A stretch of DNA of 64,000 bases from Lysobacter silvisoli (GTDB lineage: Bacteria > Pseudomonadota > Gammaproteobacteria > Xanthomonadales > Xanthomonadaceae): NCBI RefSeq assembly GCF_003382365.1, contig NZ_QTSU01000001.1, forward strand, positions 1,302,001 to 1,366,000, read 5' to 3'. Below, in pieces: positions 1-16,969 of the stretch (positions within the stretch are counted from its first letter, which is position 1; each line of letters opens with the position of its first letter). The position numbers were made by a program, and so were the translations under genes. The notes beneath the pieces were generated by a model. The model worked only from the letters and a program-made list of their open reading frames with translations. It did not search any database and was not told the DNA's origin.

Positions 1-884
1 ACGCGCATGATGCCCAGGTCGCGCCGGCGCTGGCGCACGCCCAGCGCCATGCCGCTGCTGACCATCAGCATCAGGGCGCAGAAGGTCACCACGACCACCA
101 TCTCGATCATCGACACGATGTCGCCGAACTGTGCGAAGAACTCGTTGTGGAACACCTGGTCGGAGCTGGTGTACGAAGGCCAGGCGCTGGTCTCCAGCGC
201 GGTGTCGATGCGCTGCGAGGCGTCGTCGGCGGTGACGTGCGGCTTGAGCGTGATCACGAAGCTGCCGACGGTGTCCTTCCAGATGTCGCGGTTCTCGTTG
301 AGGAAGTCGTAGTGGGTGACCGCGAAGTTGCGGCTGCCCGCGCCCTTGGTCGAATCGAAGATGCCGGCCACGATGTGATTCCAGGCGCGCTCGCCATGCG
401 GCGGCCGGAACAGCAGGCTCTGCAGCGGAATCGAGTCGCCCTTCTTCCAGCCGAACTTGTCGGCGATGTCGGCGCTGACCAGGATCGCGCGCTTGTCGGT
501 GAGGAAGGTCTTGCGGGTGTCGGCGTCCATGACCATGTCGGGATGGGTGTCCAGCCAGGTCTGCGGCTCCACCGCGAAGCTCATGAACATGTTCGACTGT
601 TCGCGGTAGTACAGGCCGATCCAGGTCGCGTAACTGATCGTCTCCAGCCCCTCGACCTTGCGGATGGTGTCGATCGACGACAGCGGCAGCACCTGCATCG
701 CGCCGGCGTCGCTCATCGCCATCAGCCGGCGCGAGGCGATGGAGTTGTCGCCGCCGTTCATGGAATAGCGCAAGGCGCCGAGGATGCCGAAAGTGCAAAA
801 CGCCAGGGCGACGGCCGCGGTCAGCAACAGCGAGCGCAGCTTGAAAAACCTGTGGTACCGCCAGATGAGGTTCAACTCGTTCAT
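1..884 (-). CDS. ABC transporter permease, FtsX/MacB type (3' end outside window)
   Basis: The first 294 codons of a minus-strand gene are open from ATG at 884 to the window edge. The protein begins MNELNLIWRYHRFFKLRS and has a transmembrane helix at about residues 17-37. A MacB-like periplasmic domain follows (about 40-240, with stretches such as SIASRRLMAMSDAGAM and ILVSADIADKFGWKKGD). A second hydrophobic helix starts near residue 258 and leads into GVRQRRRDLGIMR, typical of FtsX-family permeases. Its ATG overlaps the stop of the upstream SpaB_C gene (ATGA), so it belongs to the RiPP operon. FtsX/MacB permeases work with an ATPase in peptide efflux or envelope resistance, so export of or self-resistance to the product is the likely role. 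A cognate ATPase may lie beyond the left edge. Confidence 0.85.
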   Translation of the reverse strand, partial: MNELNLIWRYHRFFKLRSLLLTAAVALAFCTFGILGALRYSMNGGDNSIASRRLMAMSDAGAMQVLPLSSIDTIRKVEGLETISYATWIGLYYREQSNMFMSFAVEPQTWLDTHPDMVMDADTRKTFLTDKRAILVSADIADKFGWKKGDSIPLQSLLFRPPHGERAWNHIVAGIFDSTKGAGSRNFAVTHYDFLNENRDIWKDTVGSFVITLKPHVTADDASQRIDTALETSAWPSYTSSDQVFHNEFFAQFGDIVSMIEMVVVVTFCALMLMVSSGMALGVRQRRRDLGIMR

Positions 885-1852
885 GCCACCGTGTCCTGTT
901 GCTGCAAAGCGTTAGCGGCACCGCCGAGGATGCGCGCCAGTAGTAGCTCACCTGCCGCCGGCAGGCCCAGGCGGTTGTTCAACATGTGCATCTGCGAGCC
1001 GACGATGCCGAGCACGGCGTTGCGGCACATCGCATCGCCGACGGTCGCGCGGCCGTCGTAGGGCGCCAGCAGCCGCCCTTGCGCATGCAATTCCCTCAGG
1101 TGCAGCGCCAGCTTCTGCACGCCGCGTGCCCAGACCGCATGCGCGCTGCGGCTGTCCCAGCCCGCCGCCGCTTCCCGCTCCAGGCGCAGCAACAGTTGCA
1201 GTTGTTCATCGCTGGCGCGCGGCGCGTCCGCTTCCAGCGCCTCGCGGCCGACCATCGGCGTCCACAGCGCGCCATAGCGCTCGAAATAGCCGCCCAGCGC
1301 CGCCAGATCTTCGCCGCAGGCCAGCACCGCCGCGGCCATCAGCGCGAAGGCCGCCGACAGGCGCGCGCTGCGGCTGCCTTGCGTGGCCTTACACAGGCTC
1401 AGCGCCAGCCGCGAGGACAGCTCGAACAGCCCCTCGTTGGCGGCCATGGCCTGCTCGCCGCCGTAGCGCAGCCATTCGGGCTCGTAGGCGATGGCCGCCA
1501 CGGTGCCCTCGGCGTACCAGGGCAGGTCCTCCGGCGCCACCGGGCGGCCGTCGAAGGCGTGTCCGCGGTAGTACTCCTCGCGTGTGGGGGGCCGGGCCGA
1601 CAGATAAGGCTCGACGCCCTCGGCCAGCACCGCCCGGGCCGCGGCCTCGTCGGCCGCGATCGGGCCGGCCAGACGCACGCGCAGGTGCGGCCCGCCTTCC
1701 CAGTAGCGGATGAAGAACCATTGCCGCAGCGCACCGTCGGCGCTCCAGCGCTGGATCGCCGGCGCCAGGCGCTCGTGCAGATAGCGCTCGCTGGCGACCG
1801 GGTCGGACAGGAACACATGCAGCGAGAGCCAATCGCGCGGCGCGGCGTCCAT
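881..1852 (-). CDS. Stand-alone SpaB_C / thiopeptide-type biosynthesis protein, candidate pyridine-forming enzyme
   Basis: Protein of 323 residues. It starts MDAAPRDWLSLHVFLSDP and contains WFFIRYWEGGPHLRVRLAG, the characteristic N-terminal part of the 'thiopeptide-type bacteriocin biosynthesis' (SpaB C-terminal-like) domain, which fills the whole protein. In thiopeptide pathways the free-standing member of this family (TclM/TbtD type) performs the formal [4+2] cycloaddition between two dehydroalanines, forming the six-membered nitrogen ring and releasing the leader. In lanthipeptide LanB proteins the same fold eliminates glutamate from glutamylated Ser/Thr. The preceding dehydratase already has its own C-terminal domain, so I favour the cyclase role, by inference. 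The ATG overlaps the preceding stop by one base (TGATG at 1850-1854), and the stop overlaps the next ATG. Confidence 0.8.
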   Translation of the reverse strand: MDAAPRDWLSLHVFLSDPVASERYLHERLAPAIQRWSADGALRQWFFIRYWEGGPHLRVRLAGPIAADEAAARAVLAEGVEPYLSARPPTREEYYRGHAFDGRPVAPEDLPWYAEGTVAAIAYEPEWLRYGGEQAMAANEGLFELSSRLALSLCKATQGSRSARLSAAFALMAAAVLACGEDLAALGGYFERYGALWTPMVGREALEADAPRASDEQLQLLLRLEREAAAGWDSRSAHAVWARGVQKLALHLRELHAQGRLLAPYDGRATVGDAMCRNAVLGIVGSQMHMLNNRLGLPAAGELLLARILGGAANALQQQDTVA

Positions 1853-3327
1853 CAGCACAGCTCCATGGTCGGATTGGCCGAGCGCGAGTGCCCGCACAGC
1901 ACCAGGTAGACGGCCTGGCCGCGTAGCGCGAGCTCGGACTCCAGCCGGGCCTCGCGCATCATCTTGGTCGGCCGCGCATACAGGTCGTGGGCGGCGGCGG
2001 CCAGCGAAAAATCCTGCGCCGTCGCTCCGGCGGCCAGGTGGATCTCGCGCAGCGCGGCATCGCCCAGCCGTTCCATCGCCGCGCGCACGTCGGCCTGCAC
2101 GATCAGCACCGCCGTCAAGGTGGCGAAGTTGTACTTGGTGTTGGCGTACGGAAGCATGCGCACCACCGCTTCGCGCAGGTCGCCGCGCCAGGCTTGCGGC
2201 GCCGGCGCGTCGGCATCGATGTCGAGGACGCCCGGCGGCCGACCCGGCTCCTGCCCCAGCCACAGCAGGGAATGGGCCAGCTCAGCGGCCGCGGCGCTGG
2301 ACGGACGCCTGCGGCGGATGGCGCTCCAGGTCGCGATCACCGAAGCGCAGGTGCCGGCGGGCACTTGGGTCAGCACCGAGGACGCCAGGCCGCGATCGTT
2401 GCCGGAACTGCGCCGGCGCATCACGCCCAGCACCCCGCGCCCGCCGACGTCGCCGCGGCGCGCCGCACTCAAGCCCGGGACGGCCGACGCGGCCACGCGC
2501 GCGGGTGTGGCGCCACGGTCGAAGCTGCGCTGGAACAGCCGCAGCCGCGGGAATCGCTGCTCCATCTCCGGGTAGGGCCGCGGCGCGCTGAGACGGGGGT
2601 GTTCGGCCGGCAAGTCTTCGGGCTCGAAGCCCGGGCGCAAGCCGATGGCATACAGCGGAATTTCGAACGGCTGCGAGCACAAGGGCCGGCCGGTCTCGCG
2701 ATCCGGATCGGCGGTTTCGTCGATGCCGAGCAGTTGGGCCAGATGCTGGGCTTGCGCCTGCGCATGACCCGCCTCGAGCACGCAGGGCACATGCGCGAAC
2801 TCGCCGTACTCCTCGGCGTAGCGCCAGGCCCGGCCCACGCACACCAGCGCCGCGGTCCCCTCGCCCATCGCCCCCGCGGCCAGCGGCGGCAGCGCTTGCA
2901 GGCCATGGAACTCGGGCACGTAGGCATGCACCTGCGTGGTTCCGCCGCGGCTGCGCAGCAGGTAGTACTTGAGCGGATAGCGGCCGCGCGAGGACGGCAC
3001 GGCCTTGTGGATCGCCGACTCGCTGTAGGGCTCGTAGCGCAGCGGAGCGGCCAGATAGCGGAAGAACAGCGACCAGCGGACCGGCTCGTCCAGCGCCGGC
3101 ATGCCCGCGCGCGAGCCCGACAGCCACGCATCCAGGTCGCACAGCTCGCGCGGCAGGCCGGCCGAGGGCAGCAGGCGCAGGCTCGCCGGTTCGACCGCGC
3201 TGGCCTGGCGCCGCAACGCTTTCTTGCCCTCGGCGAAGGCCGGCACGATCAGGCGCTCCAAGCGCTGGTGGCCCGAGAGCAACCAGGCTTCCAGCTGATC
3301 CGCGCGTGCCGGGTCGGGAGCGGTCAT
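1852..3327 (-). CDS. Tandem SagB/nitroreductase-type azoline dehydrogenase
   Basis: Protein of 491 residues. SagB-type FMN enzymes oxidise thiazolines/oxazolines to thiazoles/oxazoles in azole-containing RiPPs. Two nitroreductase-like halves are visible. The first (about 55-190) has SSRGRYPLKYYLLRSRGG and VHAYVPEFHGLQAL, which match the SAGALYPLE...HYD region of SagB proteins. The second (about 290-490) begins RRRSSGNDRG and ends with AGATAQDFSLAAAAHDLYA and AVYLVLCGHSRSANP, the usual SagB C-terminal pattern. Thiopeptide and TOMM clusters commonly carry such double-length forms. The start at 3327 overlaps the YcaO stop (ATGA). A second, single-domain SagB protein is encoded at 13589-14464, so one of the two may act on another residue or step. 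Confidence 0.82.
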   Translation of the reverse strand: MTAPDPARADQLEAWLLSGHQRLERLIVPAFAEGKKALRRQASAVEPASLRLLPSAGLPRELCDLDAWLSGSRAGMPALDEPVRWSLFFRYLAAPLRYEPYSESAIHKAVPSSRGRYPLKYYLLRSRGGTTQVHAYVPEFHGLQALPPLAAGAMGEGTAALVCVGRAWRYAEEYGEFAHVPCVLEAGHAQAQAQHLAQLLGIDETADPDRETGRPLCSQPFEIPLYAIGLRPGFEPEDLPAEHPRLSAPRPYPEMEQRFPRLRLFQRSFDRGATPARVAASAVPGLSAARRGDVGGRGVLGVMRRRSSGNDRGLASSVLTQVPAGTCASVIATWSAIRRRRPSSAAAAELAHSLLWLGQEPGRPPGVLDIDADAPAPQAWRGDLREAVVRMLPYANTKYNFATLTAVLIVQADVRAAMERLGDAALREIHLAAGATAQDFSLAAAAHDLYARPTKMMREARLESELALRGQAVYLVLCGHSRSANPTMELC

Positions 3328-5321
3328 GGGAAGTTGTGCGGATAGGGGTTGACGTTGGCCAGCGTGTACGCCGGGGCGGCGATGCCGCGATGGCGGGCGA
3401 ACCGGTCCAGGCGGTCGGTGTCGATGCGCCGGTACTGGTGCCCGAAGGTCACCGGCATCAGGCCCGGCACCAGCACCTTGGCCGCGCTCAACCCCAGTTC
3501 GCGCAATTCGGCGAAGGTCTGGTCCACCACGATGATGTCGGTGGCGATCCCCAGCACCTTGGCGCAGTCCTCTTCCAGCTCCCGGGTTAGGTCCAGATGC
3601 CGCACGTCGGGCAGGCGCTCGCGGCATTCCTGCAAGGTCCGGACCTCGCCTTGGAGCAGGAACAGCAGCCGCTCCAAGGTTTCGTCCAGGCTGTACAGCA
3701 GCACGTGGTCGAACATGTCCTTGACCAGCGCATGGTCTTCGTACATGGCCCGCGCTCGGGCGAAATCCAGGGTCTCGCTCTTGCGGTACACGCCCATCGA
3801 GGTGGTGACTTCGGCCAGCGCGGAGAAGATCGTGTCGCTCCAGCGCCCGCCGCAGGCCGAGGCGCAGTAGGACTTGACCTTGGCGTCGCTGGACGGGTCC
3901 ACGATCATGGCGCCGACCACCGGGATCTGCGCCTCGCTGGTCATGTCGAACAGGTAGACCTCGAAGCCGGCGGCTTCGGAACGGGCGATCAGGGCGGCGC
4001 TGTGGCGGTCGTCGATGCTGCGGTTGTCGATCCGCGCCGGCGCGATCCGCGAATACCAGGTCGAGAAATAGGCGTCGCGCTCGATCACTTCGTGCAGCCC
4101 GCCCAATACCGCTTCCTCGATGCTGCCGCCCAGCGAGCAGCCGTTGGACGAGTCGTAGATGAAGCGGTTGGCCGGCACGCCCGGCCGGCTCTTGATGTTG
4201 TAGTAGCCCAGTTGCTCGGGCACCAGGATGGGCTCGTCGCGACGTAGCGAATGCCCCCAGACCCAGCCGAACTCCAGGTCTTCGGTATAGGTTTCGAAGC
4301 GGAACAAGGGGTTCGCGCGCTGCTCGTCGGTGTGCATCACGAACACCGCCGGATCGACCACGCGGTCGCCGTAGCGCGCGACCATCTGCGCGCGGCTGCC
4401 GCGCAAGGCGACCATGCCGTCGCGCGGCTCGTTGCCGGCGTAGCGCTCCACGCCTTCCAGCAATGCGATCAGCTCGGAAGTCTGGTAGTTGAAGGCGCGG
4501 CCATGGTTGTAATCGGTGGAGCCGCCGCCCGGGAACGGCCGCTCCGAGGTGAACAGCGGCATCAGGTCGGATTGCCAGTTCTGGAACACGTGCTTGATCA
4601 GCCCGCAATGGCGATCCAGGAACATCCGCCGCACGCTGCGCAGCGACAGCTTGTCGTTGGGCGGCCGCCGGTCGCTCGGGTCGAGCTTGATCCGCGACTG
4701 GAACCGCAGCGCCGCCGGTTGCGACGGCGCCGGCCGGATATCGCAGGCCGGGCACTGGCTGACCTGCATATAGCGGTGCCGCGCGATCTCCAGCGCGTCC
4801 ACGCGCAGCGTGTAGTAGTGGCCCGGCGGCAATGCGCTGTCCTGCTGGCCCAGGTCCGCGCCGGCCAGCGACGCCATCAGCTCGGCGACGGCGATGCGCG
4901 CGGCGGGCGACAGCGGCTTGAACGGCGTGGGACGGCGGCCCGACCGCTCGGCCGTATAGGTCTTGCCGGTGGGGTGATTGGTGCGGATCCATTCCTGCAG
5001 GCACTGCAGGCAACGGCCCTGGCCGGGCACGACCACCGGCCCGATCTGCACGGACCCCGGCTCCACGCCGACGAAGAACACCGTGACCCCGGCTTGGACC
5101 AGGCGCCGTTGCAGGTCGATCGCCGACAGCAGATCCAGCCTCTGGTCGAACAGCAGCAGGCATTGGCTGCCCGGCTCGGCTTCGAAATGCTCGGCCCGGG
5201 CCAGATCGGCGAACGCTTCGACGTTCGCGTCCCACAGGCGCGCCACCGCAGCCGGGCCGCCGAGCACGTCCAGGCAGGCCGGATTGGCGACCACATAGCG
5301 ACGGCTGCGGTCGCCGCTCAT
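3324..5321 (-). CDS. TOMM cyclodehydratase: E1-like zinc domain fused to YcaO domain
   Basis: Protein of 665 residues. The N-terminal 230 residues are a reduced E1/C-protein-like domain with two CxxC pairs, C104/C107 (RCLQC) and C190/C193 (QCPAC), that probably hold a structural zinc. The rest is a YcaO domain, recognised by SSNGCSLGGSIEEAVLGGLH followed by EVIERDA, which contains ATP-binding residues of the family. The protein ends PYPHNFP, a variant of the proline-rich C-terminus found in azoline-forming YcaO proteins. YcaO enzymes use ATP to cyclise Cys (or Ser/Thr) onto the preceding amide, here presumably the core cysteines. Fused C-D proteins of this type need a separate ocin-ThiF-like partner to bind the leader; that gene is immediately upstream. 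The ATG at 5321 overlaps the upstream stop. Confidence 0.93.
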   Translation of the reverse strand: MSGDRSRRYVVANPACLDVLGGPAAVARLWDANVEAFADLARAEHFEAEPGSQCLLLFDQRLDLLSAIDLQRRLVQAGVTVFFVGVEPGSVQIGPVVVPGQGRCLQCLQEWIRTNHPTGKTYTAERSGRRPTPFKPLSPAARIAVAELMASLAGADLGQQDSALPPGHYYTLRVDALEIARHRYMQVSQCPACDIRPAPSQPAALRFQSRIKLDPSDRRPPNDKLSLRSVRRMFLDRHCGLIKHVFQNWQSDLMPLFTSERPFPGGGSTDYNHGRAFNYQTSELIALLEGVERYAGNEPRDGMVALRGSRAQMVARYGDRVVDPAVFVMHTDEQRANPLFRFETYTEDLEFGWVWGHSLRRDEPILVPEQLGYYNIKSRPGVPANRFIYDSSNGCSLGGSIEEAVLGGLHEVIERDAYFSTWYSRIAPARIDNRSIDDRHSAALIARSEAAGFEVYLFDMTSEAQIPVVGAMIVDPSSDAKVKSYCASACGGRWSDTIFSALAEVTTSMGVYRKSETLDFARARAMYEDHALVKDMFDHVLLYSLDETLERLLFLLQGEVRTLQECRERLPDVRHLDLTRELEEDCAKVLGIATDIIVVDQTFAELRELGLSAAKVLVPGLMPVTFGHQYRRIDTDRLDRFARHRGIAAPAYTLANVNPYPHNFP

Positions 5322-7129
5322 GCCGCACCCGCCGCGGCGGTCAGGCTGGCATGACCGCAATACACGCCGGGCGGTAGTCCCGGTGCGGCGAACAGGTGGA
5401 AATCGGCCTGCCGCGGCGCGGCGGCCTGCGCCGCGATCAGGGCCGTGCGCCAGTCCGGCACCTGCGTCGCGGCGGCCGGCTCGGGCAGCGCCAGCGGCGG
5501 ATCGAAGCGGTCGCCGTGCAGGCCCTGCAATTGGAACAGGCTGCACGCCTTGCCCAGCGCAAGCTCCACCGCGCCCAGCGGGCTGTCGGCGACCGCGCTG
5601 CACAACGCGGTGTGCTCGTGCGACACGCGGGCGATGAAGGCGTCGCCGGCCGAATTCCACTGCAAGCGCAGGCCGATGCCGTCGGGCGCATGGAAGCGCA
5701 GCAAGGCATGCAGCACGCGCGCCGGGCCGGGCGGCAACTGGGCCAGATCAACCCAGGCCCATTGCTGGGTTCGCGCCATCTCTTCCGAGACCGCGACCGC
5801 CTGGGCGAGCGCGAGACGTTTCCATGCGTCCTCTTCGAAGGCGCAGACCGGCGCCGGCAGGTCCGGCTGGAAGCTGTGCGCCAGCGCGGCGACCGCCTGG
5901 GACAGGCCGTGGACGACAGCGGCCGCATGCTCCAGGCCCCAGCCCACGACGATGCGCTCGCGCCCGGCTTCGGACGCCGAGCGCACGCGCACCGGGTACT
6001 GCATCAACGGAACCTGCTCGATGCGGTCGTCGGCGACCACGCTGAACGGCCCCAGCAAGGGATCCAGCCACGGTTCCAGCGCGAACTTGACCCGCTCGAA
6101 CGGCAGCAGGGCGCGGCCTTCCGGCATCTGGTACTTGCTGGGGTGCACGAACGGAACCGGTGCGCCCTCGCCTCGCGCGGACGCCACCAGCATGCGGTAT
6201 TCGACTTCCAGATCCGCCGACACGATCGCGGCCTGACCGCCGGACGCGGCCGCCTCGATGCCGAAGTAGCGGCAGATCGCCGCCTGCGCGACCACACAGC
6301 CGAGCAAGGCCTTGGCCACGGAACCCAAGGTGGCCGAGTTCGGATCCGGCGGCGGCAACCAGTGCAGCAAATCCGCAATGCCGGGACGGCCGGCTTGCGA
6401 CGCCGGCGCCACCCAGGCGCGGCCGTCGACGATCGCGCCGATCGCGCCGGCGATGCCGCGCTCGCGCATCGTCCGCTCGACCTGGGCCGCCCTGGCCGTG
6501 ATCGCGCCATCGCCGATGTACAGCAGCATGCCGGCCGATTCGATGGGGCTGCCGTCGTCGATCGCCGCACGCAGGGCCAGCCGTGGACCTTGAGCGGACT
6601 CGATCTCGTCGCGCAGTTCGTCCCAGCCCGGGGTCGCCGCGCCATCGAACTGCACGCTCAGGTGGCCGCAGCCGCTGTCGGCCAGCGCCCTGACCGCCGA
6701 CAGCAGCGCCGGTCCGCCTCCGATCACGACCACCTGCGCGTCGCGCCAGCGGCGCAGCGCGGCTTCGACGCCCTGCCCCTGCAGCCGGTCTTCCAGGAAC
6801 TTGCGCAGTTCGTTGCTCGCGGTATGGGCCACGAGCCGGTCGGCCGACGGTTCCTCGGCCTCCACCGCCAGCAGCATGCCGTGCTCGCTCAGCGAGGCCA
6901 GCAACCGGCGGAAGAACTCGGCCAGCTTCGCCGGCGCGCGCTCCAGGATGCTCTCCACCGGATTGCCGGCGTCGATCAGCGCGATCAGCTTTTCGACCAG
7001 CGGATAGGCCGATGCGTCCTTCAGGACGAAGGAGCTATCGCCGGCGTCGAACAGGATGCCGTCGGGCACCAGGCCGAAATAGACATGGTTCTTGAGTTTG
7101 ACGCGGCTACCGGCAACGGTTTGATTCAT
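5318..7129 (-). CDS. Ocin-ThiF-like leader-binding protein (thiazole-containing bacteriocin maturation protein)
   Basis: Protein of 603 residues starting MNQTVAGSRVKLKNHVYFGL. The first 100 residues look like the RiPP-recognition region of 'F' proteins. A degenerate Rossmann segment follows (VVVIGGGPALLSAVRAL, residues 133-149), but no catalytic adenylation signature was seen. This is the pattern of the family annotated as putative thiazole-containing bacteriocin maturation protein. In thiopeptide and F-type azole pathways these proteins bind the leader peptide and activate the fused E1-like/YcaO enzyme encoded next. They are not known to be catalytic. The gene overlaps the LanB stop upstream and the YcaO start downstream, each by 4 nt, so coupled translation is likely. 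The family call is strong; the partner assignment is inferred from adjacency. Confidence 0.85.
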   Translation of the reverse strand: MNQTVAGSRVKLKNHVYFGLVPDGILFDAGDSSFVLKDASAYPLVEKLIALIDAGNPVESILERAPAKLAEFFRRLLASLSEHGMLLAVEAEEPSADRLVAHTASNELRKFLEDRLQGQGVEAALRRWRDAQVVVIGGGPALLSAVRALADSGCGHLSVQFDGAATPGWDELRDEIESAQGPRLALRAAIDDGSPIESAGMLLYIGDGAITARAAQVERTMRERGIAGAIGAIVDGRAWVAPASQAGRPGIADLLHWLPPPDPNSATLGSVAKALLGCVVAQAAICRYFGIEAAASGGQAAIVSADLEVEYRMLVASARGEGAPVPFVHPSKYQMPEGRALLPFERVKFALEPWLDPLLGPFSVVADDRIEQVPLMQYPVRVRSASEAGRERIVVGWGLEHAAAVVHGLSQAVAALAHSFQPDLPAPVCAFEEDAWKRLALAQAVAVSEEMARTQQWAWVDLAQLPPGPARVLHALLRFHAPDGIGLRLQWNSAGDAFIARVSHEHTALCSAVADSPLGAVELALGKACSLFQLQGLHGDRFDPPLALPEPAAATQVPDWRTALIAAQAAAPRQADFHLFAAPGLPPGVYCGHASLTAAAGAA

Positions 7130-10100
7130 GGGCTGGAGCTCTCCATAGCGCGGATCCGCTCGACTTTCTGCCTCCAGTCCTGGCCGAACACGCGTTCGAC
7201 CGAATTCGACAGCACGTGGCAGAGCAGGAATTTCTGGATCGGCGCCACTTCCAGCAGCGGAAGCAGCGCATAGAAGAAGTTGACGTTGATCCGATAGGCC
7301 AGGAACGCCGGCTTCTGCAGCGCCTCCTTTCCGGCCTTGGTGTTGATGAACGCATCGCCGATCTCGGAGATCTGCCGTTGTTCGATGCGCTGGAAGAACT
7401 CGTCGGGCACGTCCTGGCGCATCTGCGTGGCCATGTCCATGAACTGATCGTTCTGACCGACCAGTTCCTGGTAATGCGACTCGACGATGCGCTTGCTGCG
7501 CGCATCGACCTCCGCCAGGGCCCGGACCCAGTCCTCCAGCACCCGGACGAACGGCGCCGGCAGCCCGGTCTCGTCGTAACGACCGGCCACGACCGCGGCC
7601 GTGGCGCGGTCCAGCCTGGCCTGGTGTTTGGCATCGACCTGGTCGAAACGCCCGCGCAGGGCGTTGTCGGTGTCGTAGGCGGCGAAGAAGTAGTCGGCGT
7701 GCGAGCGCATCGACATGTAGCCTTCTTTCGCCCCGGCCTTGGGCGTGTTGGCGGTGGCCGCCAACATCGAATGCAGGGTGATGAAGAAGGCGTCGCGGTC
7801 GGCGTCCTTCAGCCGGTACAGCGCCAGGATCAGCTCGGCGCAGTCGCTGAGCATCAGTTCCTTGCTCTCGGCCACCGCCGGGATCAGCAGGGTCTTGGGC
7901 CGAAGGTAAGGCACCGGCGCGACCGTGTTGTCCTTGAGCAAGGGCAGATAGGGCCCGCTGTCGATCTCGAAGGTGCCGATCCACCTCGAGGTCTTCTCGT
8001 ATTCCTCCGGATCGATCCGCACCTGGCTCGGATGCTCGGCGATCCACCGCTCCACGATCGCCTGGATCGCCGGCAGCACGCGCAGCGCGTAGGACTCCGA
8101 ATCGCAGCGCAGGACCAGGTCGATGTGCGGGCCGAACTTCCAATGCGGCAGGAAGAACGCCCGCTCGACCCCGAAGTCGCGCTTGGCGGTCTCGATCGCT
8201 TCGGCGACCGGGCCCAGAATCAGCGGCCCGCGATCGCCGAAGTAGGCGATACGCAGCGCATGCCAGCGCGCCTCGGGCGCAGGCCGCTCGAGATTGCTGG
8301 TCAGCTCGAAATGCAGTTCCGAGACATGGGTTTCACCCTCGACAGAAGAGGCGTGGTCGTCGAAGTCCGGCAACAGCTCCGTCACCATCAGCGACAGGGT
8401 GTGGCGCTTGAGCATGTTCTGCAGCAGGCGCACGAACCTGGGGTTGCGCAGATCCACATAGAACGGCTTGAGATCCTTGAAATTGATCTCCTTCATCGCC
8501 GAGTAGCGCGAGATCCGCGCGCGCTCGCCGGTACCGGCCAGCAAGGCACGGACGAAGAAGCGCTGCGGCAGGCCATGGGCCTTCTGCCAGTCGCGTATGG
8601 CCAGGTAGAAGCGCGCCGCCGGCATCGACGGGTCCGGACAGGTGGAGTACGCCAGGGTCCAGGACCTGCGCGAGATCACCACATTACCCAAGGCGATCCG
8701 GGGCGAGTACAGCACGTCGCTGCCGCTGGCTTCCTTGGCCTTGGCCAGCGCGTTGGCGGCCAGGAAACACGGGCCTTCGCTGAACGCCAGCGCGATCGTG
8801 CGCTGTACCGCCGGCAGCATCACCGGGGTGAGCAGACCGTGGTACCAGATGTCGATGGCGCGGCCGTCGCGGTCGCGGAACTCCAGGCGATGCTCGGCCG
8901 GGACGTACACCAGATGCAGGTCGGCCAGGGCGAGCTTGCCGGTGTGCGGGTAGGACGGCGCGAACGGCGGAACGACCAGCTCCAGGCCCGACATGGCCGG
9001 GTGCCGGTTGGCGTTGAAGCCGAACACTCCGCCCAGTTCCGCATGGCGTCCGGATTCGGAGCCCTTGCCCAGGTACGCGCGCAGGCGTGCCATGCCGTCG
9101 TCGTCCAGCACTTCGCAGAACCGGGACAGGATGCCGGAGCGCCCGCCGTAGATCTGGTTCAGCACCACGCCGTCGCCGCCGTCGCTCTTGAACGGCTGGA
9201 CCAGGTAGCTGTAGGACGCGCGCCGGTTGCGCATGCCCGGTGGCAGCATCGACACGATGCCGCGCAGCGCCTCGGGCTCCAGACGGATGTCGCGTCCCTG
9301 CCCCAGCTGCTGCCTGAGATGGTCCTCGAACGCGCGCTTGGCGCGGGTCAAGGCCAGCGTGCGCGGCGAACTCGCCGCCACGCCCTCGGCGTCCATCTTG
9401 CCCTCCGACACCAGCGGCGCGTAAGCGGCGTCGAACTCCTCGATGAAGCGCTGCACGTCGGTGCACACGCCCTGCTCGCCGAAGCGCGAAACGAAGTAGT
9501 CGCACAGGCTGGTGTGGACCAGGTAGTTGGCGTCCACGACCCGGTTGAGCTGCTGGATCAGTTCGAACTCTTCCCGGTACGCGTCGATCGCGCCGATCGA
9601 CAGGTCCGCGTCGTCGCCGGCGTAATAGCAGTTCTCGTAGTAAGGCGTGCGGTACAGATAGCCGCCTACCCGAGCGCCCGCGGCCGTGGCCAGGTAATAG
9701 ATCGACGGGTCGATGTCCCGGCTGGCCTGGATCCGGCGCTCGAGATCGTCGCCGCGCATCACCTCCAGGTTCGCGCGCAGGCGCGCGAGCGCCGTGCGGA
9801 AGGCGTCGTCGGTGCCGTCGTCCAGCGCGGCCTCGACGCCCGCGATCCACTCCAGGGTGTCGGTCTGCTCGTGCAGGCCCGTGCGCGCGACCAGGTAGCC
9901 GATCTCGTACAGCTTCCTCACATAGCCTTCGACGGCCGGCGGCGGCAGCTTGGGCGCGAGCGCGCAGATCCGCGCGACCAGCGCCTGCGCAGGCAGGGAG
10001 TCGTCGTCCGATTCCTCCAGCGCATGGCGCACGCAGGCGAGCACCGGATTGGCGTCGAACTTGGCGATGTCCACGCCGGTGCCCCAGATCCGGCCGATGA

Positions 10101-10977
10101 AGTCCTTGCCCGCGCTGACGGTCTGCAGTTCCAGCTTGCCGTCGGCCTCGCGCACCGTCGGATTGAGCGCCAGCGGGAACGCCTGGGTCGCCTTGGCGTA
10201 ATCGCGCAGCCAGCTTTCGACGATGTGGCGCATCAGCGCGGCCTTGGCTTCGACCCGCCGTTCGATCCGGTTGGACAGCCGGCTCTCGCTCGCGCCCTCC
10301 TCGCCCTGCCAGTGCCCCACCCGGTTCAACGTCAGCGACGACAAGGGGCTGGTCTTGGTCGAGGCGCGGGCGAAGAACTGCAGCAGGGAGTCTTCCAGAT
10401 TGCGTGCGGTCTTGGCGTCCGTGGGCGCGGCGCCCTCGCCGTAGTGCTTGTGCAGGCGAGTCAGCAGCTTCTCGTTGTTGTAGCTCAGGGCGAGCTGGAG
10501 ATTCATCGACTCCAGCAGCAGGTGGATGGACTGGGCTCCGTCGGCCAATTCCCGATCGAAAGCCGCGGCGAACGCCTGTTGCGCCGTAGCCAGGGTGGCG
10601 TGGACGCCGTCCAGTTCGACGATGCGGGCGTACAGTTCGGCATCGGCGTACTTACCGCCCGCCTCCAGTTCGGAGGCCTTGGCCGGACGGCCGTTGTGCA
10701 GGGCGCGACGCAGTTCCAGCACCCGCCGCCGGTCGCCGACGTCGAGTACGCTGGGCACGACCAGCGCCAATCGGTCGCACACGTCGGGGGCCAGCGCAGC
10801 CGAACGCTCGCGCAGTTCGGTCAGCTGCGCCCAAGCCCGGTCGGATTCGCCCGTCCAGATCGCGTCCAGCTTGGACGCCGGCTCGCCGGCGACGCGCAGC
10901 ACGTAGTTCGGGTGCACCCACATGGCGGCGACGCCGGTGTCCGACCCGCCGATTGAGACCACTGCCCTGTCGTCCAT
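7126..10977 (-). CDS. LanB-type class I dehydratase with fused C-terminal elimination-like domain
   Basis: Protein of 1283 residues, longer than nisin-type LanB (about 1000). Residues 1-870 are the glutamylation part of class I dehydratases, including RASTKTSPLSSLTL, a strongly conserved LanB stretch, and YLYRTPYYENCYYA. Residues 883-1283 begin with THVSELHFEL and read as a SpaB_C-type domain, although this part is more divergent. The enzyme would glutamylate core Ser residues with Glu-tRNA and eliminate glutamate to give dehydroalanine. In Gram-positive thiopeptide clusters the two activities are usually on separate proteins; here they appear fused. The ATG at 10977 lies 8 nt after the ABC permease stop, with no obvious Shine-Dalgarno sequence. 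The stop overlaps the ocin-ThiF gene. Confidence 0.93.
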   Translation of the reverse strand: MDDRAVVSIGGSDTGVAAMWVHPNYVLRVAGEPASKLDAIWTGESDRAWAQLTELRERSAALAPDVCDRLALVVPSVLDVGDRRRVLELRRALHNGRPAKASELEAGGKYADAELYARIVELDGVHATLATAQQAFAAAFDRELADGAQSIHLLLESMNLQLALSYNNEKLLTRLHKHYGEGAAPTDAKTARNLEDSLLQFFARASTKTSPLSSLTLNRVGHWQGEEGASESRLSNRIERRVEAKAALMRHIVESWLRDYAKATQAFPLALNPTVREADGKLELQTVSAGKDFIGRIWGTGVDIAKFDANPVLACVRHALEESDDDSLPAQALVARICALAPKLPPPAVEGYVRKLYEIGYLVARTGLHEQTDTLEWIAGVEAALDDGTDDAFRTALARLRANLEVMRGDDLERRIQASRDIDPSIYYLATAAGARVGGYLYRTPYYENCYYAGDDADLSIGAIDAYREEFELIQQLNRVVDANYLVHTSLCDYFVSRFGEQGVCTDVQRFIEEFDAAYAPLVSEGKMDAEGVAASSPRTLALTRAKRAFEDHLRQQLGQGRDIRLEPEALRGIVSMLPPGMRNRRASYSYLVQPFKSDGGDGVVLNQIYGGRSGILSRFCEVLDDDGMARLRAYLGKGSESGRHAELGGVFGFNANRHPAMSGLELVVPPFAPSYPHTGKLALADLHLVYVPAEHRLEFRDRDGRAIDIWYHGLLTPVMLPAVQRTIALAFSEGPCFLAANALAKAKEASGSDVLYSPRIALGNVVISRRSWTLAYSTCPDPSMPAARFYLAIRDWQKAHGLPQRFFVRALLAGTGERARISRYSAMKEINFKDLKPFYVDLRNPRFVRLLQNMLKRHTLSLMVTELLPDFDDHASSVEGETHVSELHFELTSNLERPAPEARWHALRIAYFGDRGPLILGPVAEAIETAKRDFGVERAFFLPHWKFGPHIDLVLRCDSESYALRVLPAIQAIVERWIAEHPSQVRIDPEEYEKTSRWIGTFEIDSGPYLPLLKDNTVAPVPYLRPKTLLIPAVAESKELMLSDCAELILALYRLKDADRDAFFITLHSMLAATANTPKAGAKEGYMSMRSHADYFFAAYDTDNALRGRFDQVDAKHQARLDRATAAVVAGRYDETGLPAPFVRVLEDWVRALAEVDARSKRIVESHYQELVGQNDQFMDMATQMRQDVPDEFFQRIEQRQISEIGDAFINTKAGKEALQKPAFLAYRINVNFFYALLPLLEVAPIQKFLLCHVLSNSVERVFGQDWRQKVERIRAMESSSP

Positions 10978-10985
10978 GGCCGCCG

Positions 10986-11741: not shown

Positions 11742-12544
<803 letters not shown>

Positions 12545-12575
12545 GGATGGCTCCGCGATCTCGATCGGCTCAAGA

Positions 12576-12611
12576 CCGGACACATCGGCCGATAGGCACC
12601 GATGTGTCCGG
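12576..12611 (-). promoter_or_regulatory. Perfect 13-bp hairpin just upstream of the ABC ATPase gene
   Basis: CCGGACACATCGG (12576-12588) and CCGATGTGTCCGG (12599-12611) are exact inverted repeats around a 10-nt loop. No U-run follows on the minus strand, so it is not a classical intrinsic terminator. Its position between precursor and enzyme genes fits an RNA element that limits read-through or stabilises the upstream precursor transcript. Confidence 0.6.
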
Positions 12612-12637
12612 CCCACTGAACGGTGGAGTGCTGCGAT

Positions 12638-12659
12638 GCCGATTCGCGAACGAATCGGC
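12638..12659 (-). promoter_or_regulatory. Perfect 9-bp hairpin 23 nt after the precursor stop codon
   Basis: GCCGATTCG (12638-12646) and CGAATCGGC (12651-12659) pair perfectly; on the transcribed strand the loop reads UUCG. It begins 23 nt downstream of the precursor TAA and has no U-tract. It is likely a partial terminator or a 3'-end stabiliser, which would let precursor mRNA exceed enzyme mRNA. Confidence 0.6.
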
Positions 12660-12682
12660 GATCGTCAGCGCTTACCGGACAG

Positions 12683-12871
12683 TTACTCCACCGTCGCCAC
12701 GTCGTTGAAGCACGACGAGGAACCGCAGCTCGAGCACGAGCTACAGATGCTGACGGCGCTGGACGCGCCGGTTTCCGGCAGAGCCATCGCTTCCTTCAGG
12801 GTCACAACTTCCATGCCTTCGATGTTCAGGCTGGCCAGATCCAACGAGTCGAAATCGAAATCATTGTTCAT
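12683..12871 (-). CDS. Thiopeptide-type RiPP precursor peptide (62 aa)
   Basis: A short gene with a strong ribosome-binding site (AAGGAGA, 7 nt before ATG at 12871). The leader, about residues 1-36, is acidic and hydrophobic (DFDFDSLDLASLNIEGMEVV) and ends TLKEAMALPETGAS, which closely resembles leaders of actinobacterial thiazolylpeptide precursors. The core is Cys/Ser rich: cysteines at 43, 46, 49 and 54 and ten serines between 37 and 53, in the pattern SICSSCSSCGSSSC. It ends FNDVATVE, an unusually charged tail for a thiopeptide. The four Cys are candidate thiazoles and several Ser candidate dehydroalanines. Ser38/Ser47 and Ser41/Ser51-53 have the spacing (9-12 residues) of the Ser pairs joined in known thiopeptide macrocycles; the sequence alone cannot choose between them. 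Confidence 0.92.
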   Translation of the reverse strand: MNNDFDFDSLDLASLNIEGMEVVTLKEAMALPETGASSAVSICSSCSSCGSSSCFNDVATVE

Positions 12872-12914
12872 GACAACTTCTCCTTACGATTTATCCACTA
12901 CCATGTGGACATAC

Positions 12915-12939
12915 ATTGGGTGGAGTGGAGGCACCCAAT
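12915..12939 (-). promoter_or_regulatory. Inverted repeat upstream of the precursor gene (possible operator or leader hairpin)
   Basis: ATTGGGTG (12915-12922) and CACCCAAT (12932-12939) are exact inverted repeats with a 9-nt spacer, starting 44 nt upstream of the precursor ATG in a relatively A/T-rich 163-nt gap. I could not find a convincing -35/-10 pair. A precursor-specific promoter is nevertheless likely here, and this repeat could be its operator or a 5'-UTR hairpin. Confidence 0.35.
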
Positions 12940-13034
12940 TCCTTGACACGGTTCCTTGCGTGGTCAGCGCTTTCCATTCGGATCCTCGAGCCGGACGCGC
13001 ACGCACAGCGGCGGCATCGCGCTCTCGCGGCCCC

Positions 13035-13559
13035 TTAGATCGAGTAGCGTATTCGGACGCGAATCCGGGTCGCGCCATTCACCTTGATGCGGGATGCATC
13101 GAACTGCGGCGCGGCCTTGGCCAGGTTCGCGTTGTTGCTGAAGCCGATTCCTTCCGCGCCCAGCTCCAGGCGCGAATTGTCGTTCTCGTCGTGATAGAGC
13201 GCGAGCGCGTAGTCGCCTTGCGCCAGGCCCTTGAAGTCCAGCGACACCACGCCGTCGGCGGCCTTGGCGCGCGCGGTACGGGTGCAACCGGACGGGAACG
13301 CCTCGCCTTCCTTGCACAAGGTGCCGATGATGAAGCCGTGATCGCCGCGAACGCCGCTGACGTCCACGCGCAGCGCGTCGCCCTGCCCTGCCTGCGCCGC
13401 GAGCGGTGCCTTTGCGCCGCGCTCGCGCGCGTTGCGCGCCCCGTCTTCGGCGCCGCCCTTCGAGACCTGCCACGCTCCCCAGAGCACCGCGACCGCGACT
13501 ACCGCGCCGATCGCTCCCCGTGCGACTTGCGACCTCACATACGATTTGCCAGTTTCCAA
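13035..13559 (-). CDS. DUF2141 domain protein with N-terminal membrane anchor
   Basis: Protein of 174 residues. An N-terminal hydrophobic segment (about 15-31, AIGAVVAVAVLWGAWQV) precedes a periplasmic DUF2141 domain, recognised by LRVDVSGVRGDHG, ALALYHDENDN and GIGFSNNAN. The function of DUF2141 proteins is unknown. The start is uncertain: I used TTG at 13559, preceded by AGGGAAGTGA, but a GTG seven codons further in (about 13538) is possible. It sits between the second SagB-type gene (29 nt upstream) and the precursor (163 nt downstream), on the same strand. It may therefore be co-transcribed with the sulfur-carrier module, but nothing ties it functionally to peptide maturation. Confidence 0.75.
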   Translation of the reverse strand: METGKSYVRSQVARGAIGAVVAVAVLWGAWQVSKGGAEDGARNARERGAKAPLAAQAGQGDALRVDVSGVRGDHGFIIGTLCKEGEAFPSGCTRTARAKAADGVVSLDFKGLAQGDYALALYHDENDNSRLELGAEGIGFSNNANLAKAAPQFDASRIKVNGATRIRVRIRYSI

Positions 13560-13588
13560 GTCACTTCCCTATGTTGACCGGACGGGCT

Positions 13589-14464
13589 TCAGCTCGTCGC
13601 CTTCCCATGCGACGAACGCTTGCCCACTACGAACCCCAGCACCACGATCTCCCTGGCGCCGTCCGCCCCCACGTATGCCGCTACATCCCCATCGCAGAAT
13701 CCGCCCCAGACGCAGCCAGGCAAGCCGCGCGCCATCGCGGTCAGATGCAGGTTCTGGCTCAGCGCGCCGGCCTCGTTCATCACGAAGCGGTAGCCGCGAT
13801 CCAGGTACTTGGCCATCGAGCGCAACAGCACCGCGGTGACCACGAACACCACGCTGGCCTGTGCCTTGAACTCCGGCTGCAGGTCGAAGCCCGGCATCGC
13901 CGCGCGCGCGTCCTCGCGGCGCAGGCAGGACAGCGCATGGGCGACCGCGTCGTAGTGGTAGACGCCCGGCGCCAGGCCGGTCACGTCCATCACCACCGGA
14001 TAGATTTCCAGCGGGTACAGCGCGCCGGCCGACGGGCAGGCCCGTAGCCGCTGCACCGGGACCGTCTCGCCGAGGCGGCGTTCGCCCAGCACGCCGTAGG
14101 AATACTTGAGGATCGCGGCCAGATCGTCGACACCGACCGCACCGTCGCGCGGCGCAGCGTCGCTGGCCAGGGAACGCCGGCGCAGCAAGGCCTGCTGCAG
14201 CGTCAGCTCGCCCAGCTGCGCCTCCGGCAAGGCGATCGATTCGGCATCGCGATGTTCGTTGCGGCTGCGCGACACGATCTCGCGCAGCGCCGGCTCGCTG
14301 AGGAAGGCGCGGATGCGCGAGGACAAGCCGCGATCCAGCGTCCGGCCCCAGGTGGTGCGCGCATGGAAGGCATCGACGGCCGAGGTATCGTCGCCGGCGA
14401 ACAGCAGTTCGGTGCGGTCGCGGCGCACGCCGTTCGCGCCCGCTGCCCGGGTATCGGCTGGCAT
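13589..14464 (-). CDS. Single-domain SagB/ThcOx-type dehydrogenase
   Basis: Protein of 291 residues. SagB hallmarks are all present: LLRRRSLASD (phosphate-binding region), CPSAGALYPLEIYPVV, GLAPGVYHYDAVAHAL and NEAGALSQNLHLTAMARGL, ending with IVVLGFVVGKR. Members use FMN to oxidise azolines to azoles, or act as free-standing nitroreductase-like enzymes in other pathways. Start ATG at 14464 lies 13 nt after the stop of the E1-rhodanese gene; the frame is open further upstream but there overlaps that gene. Unlike the 491-residue tandem SagB at 1852-3327, this one keeps all the recognisable motifs in a single domain and may be the main catalyst of azoline oxidation. Confidence 0.88.
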   Translation of the reverse strand: MPADTRAAGANGVRRDRTELLFAGDDTSAVDAFHARTTWGRTLDRGLSSRIRAFLSEPALREIVSRSRNEHRDAESIALPEAQLGELTLQQALLRRRSLASDAAPRDGAVGVDDLAAILKYSYGVLGERRLGETVPVQRLRACPSAGALYPLEIYPVVMDVTGLAPGVYHYDAVAHALSCLRREDARAAMPGFDLQPEFKAQASVVFVVTAVLLRSMAKYLDRGYRFVMNEAGALSQNLHLTAMARGLPGCVWGGFCDGDVAAYVGADGAREIVVLGFVVGKRSSHGKATS

Positions 14465-14477
14465 CGTCGCGCTGGCC

Positions 14478-15665
14478 TCAGTAGACCGCATCGGTGCGCT
14501 CGATATCGCGGGTCCAGGCTTCGATGCCGCCGTCCAGGCTGGCCACGTCGCGGAAACCGCGCTCGGCCAGGAAGGCCGCGGCGCGCAGCGAGCGCACCCC
14601 CGACTTGCAGTAGCACACCACCGGCAGGTTCCGGTCCAAGGTGTGGAAGTGCTCCTCGATTTCATCCACCGGCATCAACAGCGAACCGTCGATGCGCACG
14701 ATCTGGTGCTCGTTGAGCGTGCGCACGTCGACCAGTTGCAGCGCATCCGCCTGCCCCAGACGCTGCTGCAGCCATTGCGCGCTGACCCGCTCGATCGGCG
14801 CGGCCTCCGCGTCGCCTGCGCCGTCGCCCAGGCCGGTGCCGCAGAACACCGCGTAGTCGACCAATCCGGTCTGGGTCGGGTAGTCGCCGCAGACGCAGCA
14901 GCCCGGATCGCGACGCAGTTCGAGTTCGCGGAAGCTCATCTCGGTGGCGTCGAAGCGCAGCAGCCGCCCCGCCATGGGCCGGCCGATCCCGGTAATGAGC
15001 TTGATCGTCTCCACCGCCTGCAGCAGGCCCATGGTCCCGGGCAGCACGCCGAACACCCCGCCCTCCGCGCACGAAGGCGCAAAGCCCGGCGGCGGCGGCT
15101 CCGGGTACAGGCAGCGGTAGCACGGGCCGTCGCCGAGGTTGAACACCGACAGCATGCCCTCGAAGCGGAACACCGAGGCGTAGACGTTGGGCTTGCCGCT
15201 GAGCACGCAGGCGTCGTTGATCAGGTAACGCGTGGCGAAGTTGTCGGTGCCGTCGACGACGATGTCGTAGTCGGCCAGCAGCGCCAGGGCGTTATCGGCC
15301 TCGATCCGGCAGCGGTGCTCGACGATCGTGATGTGCGGATTCATCGCCGCCAGGCGCGCGGCGGCGGCTTCGACCTTGGGCCGGCCCACGTCCTGCGCGG
15401 TGTACAGCACCTGGCGCTGCAGATTGCTCACGTCGACCGTGTCGTGTTCGACGATGCCGATCGTGCCCACGCCCGATGCCGCCAGGTACTGCGCGGTAGG
15501 CGAGCCCAGGCCGCCTGCGCCGACCAGCAGCACGCGCGCGGCCTTCAGCCTGCGCTGACCCTCGCTGCCGATCTCCGGAATGATGATGTGCCGGCTGTAG
15601 TGACGGATCTCGTCGCGCGAGAGTTCCGGGCCTGGCTTGAATTCGGGAGTCCTTTCCCTGTTCAT
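14478..15665 (-). CDS. MoeB/ThiF-type adenylyltransferase with C-terminal rhodanese domain
   Basis: Protein of 395 residues. The N-terminal E1-like domain has the nucleotide-binding GAGGLGS at 49-55, the DGTDNFATRYLIND segment, two Cys pairs (CYRC and CVC) for zinc, and CAEGGVFGVLPGTMG with the usual catalytic Cys region. Residues from about 285 form a rhodanese domain with active loop CKSGVRS. Such MoeZ/MoeB-R proteins adenylate the C-terminal GlyGly of a sulfur-carrier protein and transfer persulfide sulfur to make a thiocarboxylate. The carrier gene lies 3 nt upstream. The pair could serve molybdopterin or cysteine synthesis, but its place at the head of the RiPP genes suggests a dedicated sulfur supply. 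Confidence 0.9.
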   Translation of the reverse strand: MNRERTPEFKPGPELSRDEIRHYSRHIIIPEIGSEGQRRLKAARVLLVGAGGLGSPTAQYLAASGVGTIGIVEHDTVDVSNLQRQVLYTAQDVGRPKVEAAAARLAAMNPHITIVEHRCRIEADNALALLADYDIVVDGTDNFATRYLINDACVLSGKPNVYASVFRFEGMLSVFNLGDGPCYRCLYPEPPPPGFAPSCAEGGVFGVLPGTMGLLQAVETIKLITGIGRPMAGRLLRFDATEMSFRELELRRDPGCCVCGDYPTQTGLVDYAVFCGTGLGDGAGDAEAAPIERVSAQWLQQRLGQADALQLVDVRTLNEHQIVRIDGSLLMPVDEIEEHFHTLDRNLPVVCYCKSGVRSLRAAAFLAERGFRDVASLDGGIEAWTRDIERTDAVY

Positions 15666-15668
15666 CGC

Positions 15669-15989
15669 TTATCCCCCAGCGATCGCGGGCAGGATGGTGA
15701 TGACGTCCTGCGGGCGCAGCGGCGTTTGTTCCTGCTGCAGGAAGCGGATGTCCTTGGAGTTGAGGAAGACGTTGATGAAACGGCGCAGTTGCTGATCGCC
15801 GGCGAACATCTGCGTGCGCAGCAGCGGGTATTGGTCCGAGATCAATCGCAGGGCTTGTCCGACCGTTTCAGCCTGGACATCCACGGAGCCGGCCTGGCCG
15901 GTGAAACGTCGCAATCCCGATGGGATCAATACGACTACGTCCGCTAGCGAAGGCGCGCTTGCAGCGGCGCCATCTTCCTTGCGATCCAT
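15669..15989 (-). CDS. MoaD/ThiS family sulfur-carrier protein
   Basis: Protein of 106 residues with the ubiquitin-like fold of MoaD/ThiS/CysO and the diagnostic C-terminal Gly-Gly (ITILPAIAGG). After activation by the neighbouring E1-rhodanese it would carry sulfur as a terminal thiocarboxylate. The central FINVFLNSKDIRFLQQEQTP resembles CysO-type carriers (VFVNDEDIRFLDG-like), so an acceptor such as O-phosphoserine/cysteine synthase is conceivable; none is present in the window. It is the first gene of the minus-strand run that continues into the thiopeptide genes. Confidence 0.88.
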   Translation of the reverse strand: MDRKEDGAAASAPSLADVVVLIPSGLRRFTGQAGSVDVQAETVGQALRLISDQYPLLRTQMFAGDQQLRRFINVFLNSKDIRFLQQEQTPLRPQDVITILPAIAGG

Positions 15990-16958: not shown

Positions 16959-16969
16959 TGGGCTTGCTG

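Follow-up and report, generated by a model that had tools for sequence, protein, structure and literature searches.

A window of 64,000 nucleotides from Lysobacter silvisoli (G000:C1:1302001-1366000, in a genome of 4.54 Mb and seven contigs) opens inside a gene cluster that probably directs the biosynthesis of a thiopeptide bearing a thioamide. The original prediction, made from the letters of the window, had placed a thiopeptide-class pathway of a gammaproteobacterium at positions 1..15989, with all of its genes on one strand. The class holds up, since by family the cluster has a precursor, a cyclodehydratase, a dehydrogenase and parts for glutamylation, elimination and pyridine synthesis, and every gene of the cluster is indeed on the - strand. 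A search of the genome for YcaO proteins found two, one within the window and the other 3.6-4.6 kb before its start, and DNA outside the window was therefore examined as well. The cluster extends about 6 kb beyond the window start, to C1:1295950 (window position -6050), and includes genes for FtsX2, HlyD, a LolD-type ATPase, YcaO2 and TfuA. The positions first given were thus too short for the operon, and the machinery for thioamide formation (YcaO2, TfuA, ThiS and MoeB) had been overlooked; of these, ThiS and MoeB-rhodanese lie within those positions, as does a DUF2141 protein that had likewise gone unnamed.

The genes, their families, the fusion described below and the conservation of the set were observed across seven genomes with a common precursor type: that of the window, Lysobacter sp. 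cf310, Aquimonas voraii, Massilia arenosa, Glaciecola sp. MH2013, Bowmanella dokdonensis and Teredinibacter waterburyi. The Massilia set is split across two contigs, and the SpaB_C and FtsX genes fall unseen in the gap between them. When 84,980 species genomes were scanned with an alignment of the fusion, nine loci were returned; because the scan rests on two peptide patterns, distant relatives are under-counted. The nearest cluster-bearing relative, cf310 (G012), belongs to the same genus as the window, and the Xanthomonadaceae source proposed at the outset was right in kind.

The precursor is of the Ser/Cys-rich thiopeptide type and exceeds the cut-offs of both Pfam Thiopep_pre PF19409 (44.8 bits, cut-off 23.5) and NCBIfam thiazolyl_B NF033400 (49.6 bits, cut-off 30). 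Its leader ends in ALPETGA, much as the lactazole leader does (ALPExGA), and is followed by the core SSAVSICSSCSSCGSSSCFNDVATVE, in agreement with the leader end and Cys/Ser core first read from the sequence. The leader end is the same in all seven genomes and the core is nearly invariant, fitting SS[AVG][VI]S[IS][CST][SN]SCS[ST]CGS[ST]S throughout, with S1, S2, S5, S9, C10, S11, C13, G14, S15 and S17 unchanged. This common stretch is followed by Cys in five genomes, by Thr-Cys in Aquimonas and by Ser-Cys in Teredinibacter.

Azole formation is represented by a YcaO cyclodehydratase with an E1-like part and an ocin-ThiF-like partner, the latter a weak match. The fused E1-like/YcaO protein, recognized as such in the original prediction, lies above the cut-offs of TIGR03604 (3.1e-81, 273.2 bits, cut-off 219.25) and TIGR03882 (1.1e-19, 71.2 bits, cut-off 36.9). 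The ocin-ThiF-like call was overstated, since the window protein reaches 20.6 bits against TIGR03693 (cut-off 561.9), but six of the seven homologues match this model (best 1.2e-7); its second-ranked hit, to PbtF, was not significant (E 0.18). This protein is a probable leader-binding partner with a RRE (recognition element of ribosomally synthesized and post-translationally modified peptides, RiPPs). Two SagB-type dehydrogenases had been proposed. The first is an azoline dehydrogenase by TIGR03605 (133.5 bits, cut-off 78.4), with a clear homologue in the cf310 cluster only and none in the stretches examined of the other five. The second falls under the Pfam and NCBIfam cut-offs when taken alone, and a six-sequence profile matched it to nitroreductase 3eo7 at 1.1e-9; it is found in all seven clusters, truncated by a contig end in Massilia.

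The protein originally described as a LanB-type dehydratase (10977-7126, - strand, 1,283 aa) does have a LanB-type match but is not an ordinary LanB: a glutamylation domain is joined to a pyridine-synthase-like C-terminal third. A seven-sequence profile matched the N-terminal part to PDB 6ec7, which we take to be TbtB, at 8.9e-38 and to the goadsporin protein 9jhq at 1.2e-24, whereas a single-sequence search of PDB with the N-terminal 902 residues returned nothing. Residues 904-1270 match the TbtD/PbtD model NF045556 (6.9e-59, 199.8 bits), and the C-terminal domain matches TbtD at 5.2e-22 and PbtD at 6.4e-16 by sequence (1.2e-30 by profile), with no MibB, NisB or other LanB-type protein in the profile search at E up to 10. 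An S-x-R-S-H-A motif and a Tyr aligned with PbtD Tyr293 are retained in this domain, both Arg residues of the NisB PH-R-R motif are replaced, and fold comparison gave Z 32.6 to PbtD versus 19.2 to MadB and 18.9 to MibB. At its C-terminal end the fusion lacks the elimination domain of a LanB, with its catalytic Arg/Glu/His set, and a full-length LanB of the ordinary kind was rejected on the strength of the pyridine-synthase model, the TbtD/PbtD matches and the Z scores. The LanC family was absent from the general library matches of the operon proteins, no search aimed at LanC having been made. Both parts share one open frame in six of the seven genomes; in Teredinibacter the two are encoded separately, a stop codon and a new start lying between them.

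If the C-terminal domain were instead a degenerate elimination domain, the product would be a linear, uncyclised peptide of azoles and dehydroalanines with a thioamide, similar to goadsporin. In its layout the fusion resembles a complete LanB, Lant_dehydr_C also matches the last third (5.3e-12), the N-terminal part matches 9jhq, and goadsporin-like sets have been noted among TfuA clusters (PMC8120280; statements on published systems here and below refer to the portions of the cited sources available to us). We regard such a product as highly improbable, since the specific TbtD/PbtD matches, the retained motif and Tyr and the fold all point to a pyridine synthase, a separate SpaB_C protein exists, and Teredinibacter encodes the pyridine-synthase domain as a gene of its own.

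The stand-alone SpaB_C gene was correctly identified in the original prediction, but the reading of it as the counterpart of TclM, the [4+2] enzyme, needs revision, since the last third of the fusion is the likelier seat of cycloaddition. The SpaB_C protein scores above the cut-off of TIGR03891 (5.8e-30, 105.1 bits) and at 7.7e-12 and 45.1 bits against NF045556. Its profile matches MibB (1.8e-10) and NisB (1.9e-8) ahead of PbtD and TbtD (about 1e-3), and it keeps the residues aligned with NisB R784, R786, E823, R826 and H961, to which we ascribe catalytic roles; 7cww is without a residue aligned to R826. These results, together with the replaced Arg pair and the pyridine-synthase motif of the fusion, make it very unlikely that the roles are swapped, with the SpaB_C protein as pyridine synthase and the fusion as a normal two-domain LanB dehydratase. 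Two points weigh against our division of labor. The fusion domain is a [4+2] pyridine synthase by family, with a score below the NF045556 equivalog cut-off of 325 bits, and the predicted fold of the SpaB_C protein is nearer to PbtD. Fold alone was tried as a means of telling elimination from cyclase domains and failed for the stand-alone protein. Judged from sequence, the SpaB_C protein is more likely the glutamate-elimination partner, with a fold that does not agree, and by profile the cluster appears to hold both a glutamylation and an elimination domain.

An adjacent YcaO-TfuA pair is a hallmark of backbone thioamide formation, and in this cluster the two open reading frames (ORFs) meet at C1:1297332. 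The best NCBIfam match of YcaO2 is the model for thioamidation of McrA glycine (4.2e-69, 233.3 bits, cut-off 365). A sulfur carrier and its activating enzyme, ThiS and MoeB, are present in all seven clusters, and the ThiS ORF of the window stops directly after Gly-Gly. Thioamide-forming YcaO proteins outside sulfide-rich habitats tend to rely on a ThiS homologue in thiocarboxylated form together with a hydrolase, TfuA (PMC13063428). There are other MoeB-like stretches elsewhere in the genome (the best 56% over residues 14-281, with one stop codon within the alignment), and the cluster MoeB is therefore probably a dedicated copy.

The YcaO2-TfuA and ThiS-MoeB pairs could serve a separate job, such as thioamidation of a cell protein or another sulfur pathway, and leave the thiopeptide without a thioamide. 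In the window genome the two pairs are at opposite ends of the locus, a thioamide is not readable from the core, and other YcaO proteins thioamidate proteins, for instance uL16 and McrA (PMC13063428, PMC5589413). We nonetheless consider this unlikely. Both pairs occur in all seven genomes of the cluster type, with TfuA and ThiS beside the cluster in six and on another contig in Massilia, and TfuA of this type was found in just two of 20 genomes of the genus, both of them cluster-bearing. From the ABC ATPase through TfuA, adjacent genes overlap or have at most 26 bases between them, which indicates an operon-like arrangement. Furthermore, among 398 genomes of the phylum searched, 14 have TfuA, the window genome included, and the other 13 provided 19 control loci of about 7 kb on each side. 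A YcaO gene lies within about 1 kb in all 19, a MoeB-like gene is found in three and ThiS in two, and the thiopeptide leader motif occurs in none. One further locus of the same class, L088 (G500:C4:2073981-2088340), contains ThiS, MoeB-rhodanese, YcaO-TfuA and SagB-like and E1-YcaO-like stretches with no thiopeptide leader motif, and its product is perhaps an azole and thioamide peptide of another kind.

ThiS is a separate gene in both Lysobacter genomes, and its homologues in the five other clusters are 40-47% identical. These five clusters encode ThiS, rhodanese and MoeB in a single ORF of 467-476 aa with three Pfam domains each, and in four of the seven genomes this ORF is contiguous with YcaO2 and TfuA. 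The Gly-Gly is internal in all five fusions, at residues 89-90. The buried Gly-Gly would either be cut there or belong to a carrier that works without a free end.

From these families we infer the reactions, their order, the ring and a thioamide at some position of the backbone, as follows. The ocin-ThiF-like protein would hold the leader while the E1-like/YcaO protein turns core Cys and some Ser residues into azolines, which the SagB-type dehydrogenases would oxidize to azoles. The N-terminal part of the fusion would glutamylate Ser residues from Glu-tRNA, and the SpaB_C protein would eliminate glutamate to leave dehydroalanines. A [4+2] cycloaddition of two of these, carried out by the C-terminal domain of the fusion, would form a pyridine and thereby close the ring and release the leader. 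YcaO2 and TfuA would replace at least one backbone oxygen with sulfur, presumably from a thiocarboxylate on ThiS charged by MoeB-rhodanese, and the product may leave the cell through the ABC-2 exporter, the two-FtsX/HlyD/LolD pump or both.

The lactazole core requires S1, S10, S11, S12 and C13, of which S1 and S12 form the pyridine, and an S-S-S-C motif is needed there for ring closure and leader loss (PMC7210931). By analogy, the pyridine would here be formed from S1 and S17, with S15 as dehydroalanine and S16 as oxazole, in a 47-membered ring; ring starts at S2 or S5 would give 44 or 35 members. The Laz enzymes tolerate rings of up to 62 members (PMC7210931), and a 47-membered ring is therefore not forbidden. 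For all 26 residues of the core, carrying four thiazoles, one oxazole, the pyridine and one more dehydroalanine, the calculated [M+H]+ is 2327.79, or 2343.77 with one thioamide, and each additional Ser dehydration would lower it by 18.01; across the possible dehydrations, with or without a thioamide, the values span about 2237-2382. The same formula gives the mass of micrococcin P1.

A broader reading, which we put forward tentatively and would rate at somewhat below even, is that these clusters represent a Gram-negative family of thioamidated, 47-membered thiopeptides. In this family one polypeptide, glutamyl transferase and [4+2] cyclase combined, would both start dehydration and close the ring, with a separate eliminase acting in between. 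Since the carrier is the N-terminal part of the ThiS-rhodanese-MoeB fusion in five of the seven genomes, either a cleavage, for which TfuA is a possible agent, would have to expose its Gly-Gly, or the carrier would act in cis. We know of no natural thiopeptide with a ring as large as 47 members.

A dehydratase match was found in four of 149 genomes searched, the window's included, and in one of them (G106) it covered the N-terminal part only in that search. In a survey of the class, the window genome was the only one of 369 with the pyridine synthase; as the survey is a sample, the enzyme is to be considered rare and not absent. In the tree, the protein of the betaproteobacterium Massilia pairs with those of the two Lysobacter genomes (support 100/99), and that of Aquimonas, a member of the same family as the window, falls outside, which suggests horizontal transfer of the cluster. 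More distant loci are found in Sphingomonas oligophenolica, G106, Metabacillus and Aliibacillus, with TfuA in none of the four genomes and ThiS in neither of the two examined for it. The loci of G106 (L013:14142-21888; another family of the same order) and of the alphaproteobacterium S. oligophenolica (L021) are thiopeptide-type sets without TfuA in which the dehydratase and pyridine-synthase-like parts are in different frames; the G106 core is SCRTVIYSCSCSVSPT.

Table 1. Features of the cluster. Plain positions refer to the window, C1 positions to the contig that contains it, and L positions to loci in other genomes.
Feature	Position	Strand	Best family match or score
ThiS/MoaD-type sulfur carrier, 106 aa, Gly-Gly end	15669..15989	-	PF02597 5e-12
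MoeB-type adenylyltransferase with C-terminal rhodanese, 395 aa	14478..15665	-	PF00899 1.1e-83; PF00581 1.4e-18
SagB-type azoline dehydrogenase 1, 291 aa	13589..14464	-	TIGR03605 5.3e-39
DUF2141 protein, 174 aa, N-terminal hydrophobic stretch	13035..13559	-	PF09912 3.6e-20
Thiopeptide precursor, 62 aa	12683..12871	-	PF19409 1e-11; NF033400 2.8e-13
Intergenic double hairpin 3' of precursor stop	12545..12682	-	minimum free energy -75.0, z -6.2
ABC exporter ATPase, 268 aa	11738..12544	-	PF00005 4.8e-28
ABC-2 type permease, 251 aa	10986..11741	-	PF01061 7.9e-18
Glutamylation domain, tRNA-Glu-dependent, TbtB-like (predicted); N-terminal 901 residues of fusion	8275..10977	-	PF04738 5.1e-17
[4+2] pyridine synthase domain, TbtD/PbtD-like (predicted); C-terminal 382 residues of fusion	7126..8274	-	
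Ocin-ThiF-like protein, 603 aa	5318..7129	-	TIGR03693 1.1e-4
Fused E1-like/YcaO cyclodehydratase, 665 aa, predicted azoline formation	3324..5321	-	PF02624 1e-65
SagB/nitroreductase-type azoline dehydrogenase 2, 491 aa	1852..3327	-	PF00881 6.2e-4
Stand-alone SpaB_C protein, 323 aa, probable glutamate-elimination partner	881..1852	-	PF14028 6.2e-41
FtsX/MacB-type permease 1, 387 aa in full, cut by window start	1..884	-	
FtsX2 permease	C1:1301724-1300483	-	
HlyD adaptor	C1:1300486-1299407	-	
LolD-type ATPase	C1:1299380-1298682	-	
YcaO2	C1:1298666-1297332	-	PF02624 2.2e-77
TfuA	C1:1297332-1295950	-	PF07812 1.4e-44
ThiS-rhodanese-MoeB fusions in other genomes	L012:8154-9578, L061:9506-10909, L062:6321-7751, L063:3996-5426, L064:6415-7842		

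In order of transcription the genes are ThiS, MoeB-rhodanese, dehydrogenase 1, DUF2141, the precursor and the ABC-2 ATPase and permease; then the 1,283-aa fusion, the ocin-ThiF-like protein, E1-YcaO, dehydrogenase 2, SpaB_C and FtsX1; and finally, all outside the window, FtsX2, HlyD, the LolD-type ATPase, YcaO2 and TfuA. The ABC exporter and FtsX permease named in the original prediction were both recovered. The LolD-type ATPase matches the DarD model of the darobactin exporter, which we take to consist of DarB, DarC and DarD, and an HlyD adaptor and an FtsX-type permease complete the likeness. In contrast to that exporter, this cluster has two distinct FtsX permeases, and the ATPase score of 201.3 bits is below the DarD cut-off of 375, with the LolD and FtsE models slightly higher. 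DUF2141, which may be an immunity or periplasmic binding protein, is present in all seven clusters, just upstream of the precursor in six and about 1 kb away on the opposite strand in Teredinibacter.

The double hairpin that follows the precursor (z against 100 dinucleotide shuffles) consists of a stem with a TTCG loop and a long inverted repeat, and may stabilise or attenuate the mRNA. Among the other intergenic stretches folded, weaker hairpins were found after the precursor in Massilia (z -2.0), Glaciecola (z -3.2) and Bowmanella (z -4.0); this comparison covered these three and the window. Scans of 10900-17100 for promoters and terminators were negative, with one promoter-like site against a shuffle mean of 0.8 and three terminator-like sites against 3.4 in shuffles.

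The cluster is bordered past ThiS by a DUF7010 gene on the + strand and by recJ, and past the 3' end of TfuA at C1:1295950 by a further + strand gene, whose product has a trypsin-like domain. The flanks were compared in four congeners: in three they are separated by about 7 kb, within which blastn found no match to the cluster, and the stretch compared in the fourth (G001) covered one flank only. The three congeners (L106, L107 and L108) have about 7 kb of other DNA at this position, which may therefore be a variable site. A 1.4-kb stretch beside the cluster (L003:12373-13768; window -7627..-6232) is 89-94% identical in three congeners, above the 78-80% of the adjacent gene; the ORF around it, on the + strand, encodes a trypsin-like domain (PF13365 9.9e-8), and the stretch had no Rfam match. 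Plasmid origin was considered and rejected: the 12 plasmid records matched were all below 60% identity, seven of them from Streptomyces.

Thiopeptides are potent inhibitors of protein synthesis and, to our knowledge, nearly all work on them has concerned Gram-positive producers. A coherent family in Gram-negative bacteria that has a multi-part pump of its own would reveal how such a compound is made and exported over two membranes. The union of the first dehydration step with ring closure is a natural experiment on substrate hand-over and a simple test construct, and with a ThiS-rhodanese-MoeB fusion next to YcaO-TfuA, the way in which sulfur reaches thioamides can be tested directly. Additionally, the full gene set helps to separate real Gram-negative thiopeptide loci from YcaO-only labels; in one Massilia 'thiopeptide' cluster on record, the core genes encode an NTF2-like protein and an OsmC/YcaO protein (PMC7988111).

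Thiopeptides that bear thioamides are already known as a class, and TfuA clusters from Proteobacteria that encode thiopeptide-like precursors were described in 2021 with antiSMASH and RiPPER, Rhizobium and Herbaspirillum being named (PMC8120280). The figure legends of that report include MoeB (Fig. 4) and ThiS (Fig. 5), and the dehydratases described there are split, in contrast to the fusion found here (PMC8120280). Its main text, with supplements and figures outside our scope, has no mention of Lysobacter, Aquimonas, Massilia, Glaciecola, Bowmanella or Teredinibacter, nor of 'rhodanese' or 'pyridine'. The claim that the cluster is likely undescribed therefore holds only in part. In a literature search, with subscription papers and supplements outside its scope, we found no glutamylation/pyridine-synthase fusion, no ThiS-rhodanese-MoeB fusion beside YcaO-TfuA and no report of such a cluster from this genus. 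The joining of glutamylation and pyridine-synthase domains may be a novel arrangement.

Several known systems share parts of this pathway. The actinomycete compounds saalfelduracin, thiopeptin and Sch 18640 combine thiopeptide machinery with a YcaO-TfuA pair (PMC8120280, PMC9231227), but they are actinobacterial. Archaeal ycaO-tfuA loci for McrA thioamidation have moaD and moeB near some of them, but their target is a protein and not a RiPP, and thiopeptide genes go unmentioned (PMC5589413). The lactazole precursor from Streptomyces has the same Ser-Ser-Ser-Cys at the pyridine site (PMC7210931). In contrast, LazF combines elimination and dehydrogenase functions and LazC is separate, whereas in this cluster it is the glutamylation enzyme that carries the pyridine synthase; the lactazole ring has 32 members (62 after a 10-residue insertion) against the 47 predicted here; and the five Laz enzymes are listed without a YcaO-TfuA pair (PMC7210931). 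When the domains are taken one at a time, the thiomuracin and GE2270 enzymes TbtB, TbtD and PbtD are the closest structures solved, of which TbtD and PbtD were solved as single proteins, unlike the joined domains of the L. silvisoli fusion. A Streptomyces plasmid likewise has separate annotated features for dehydratase, pyridine synthase and elimination-type protein, three in all.

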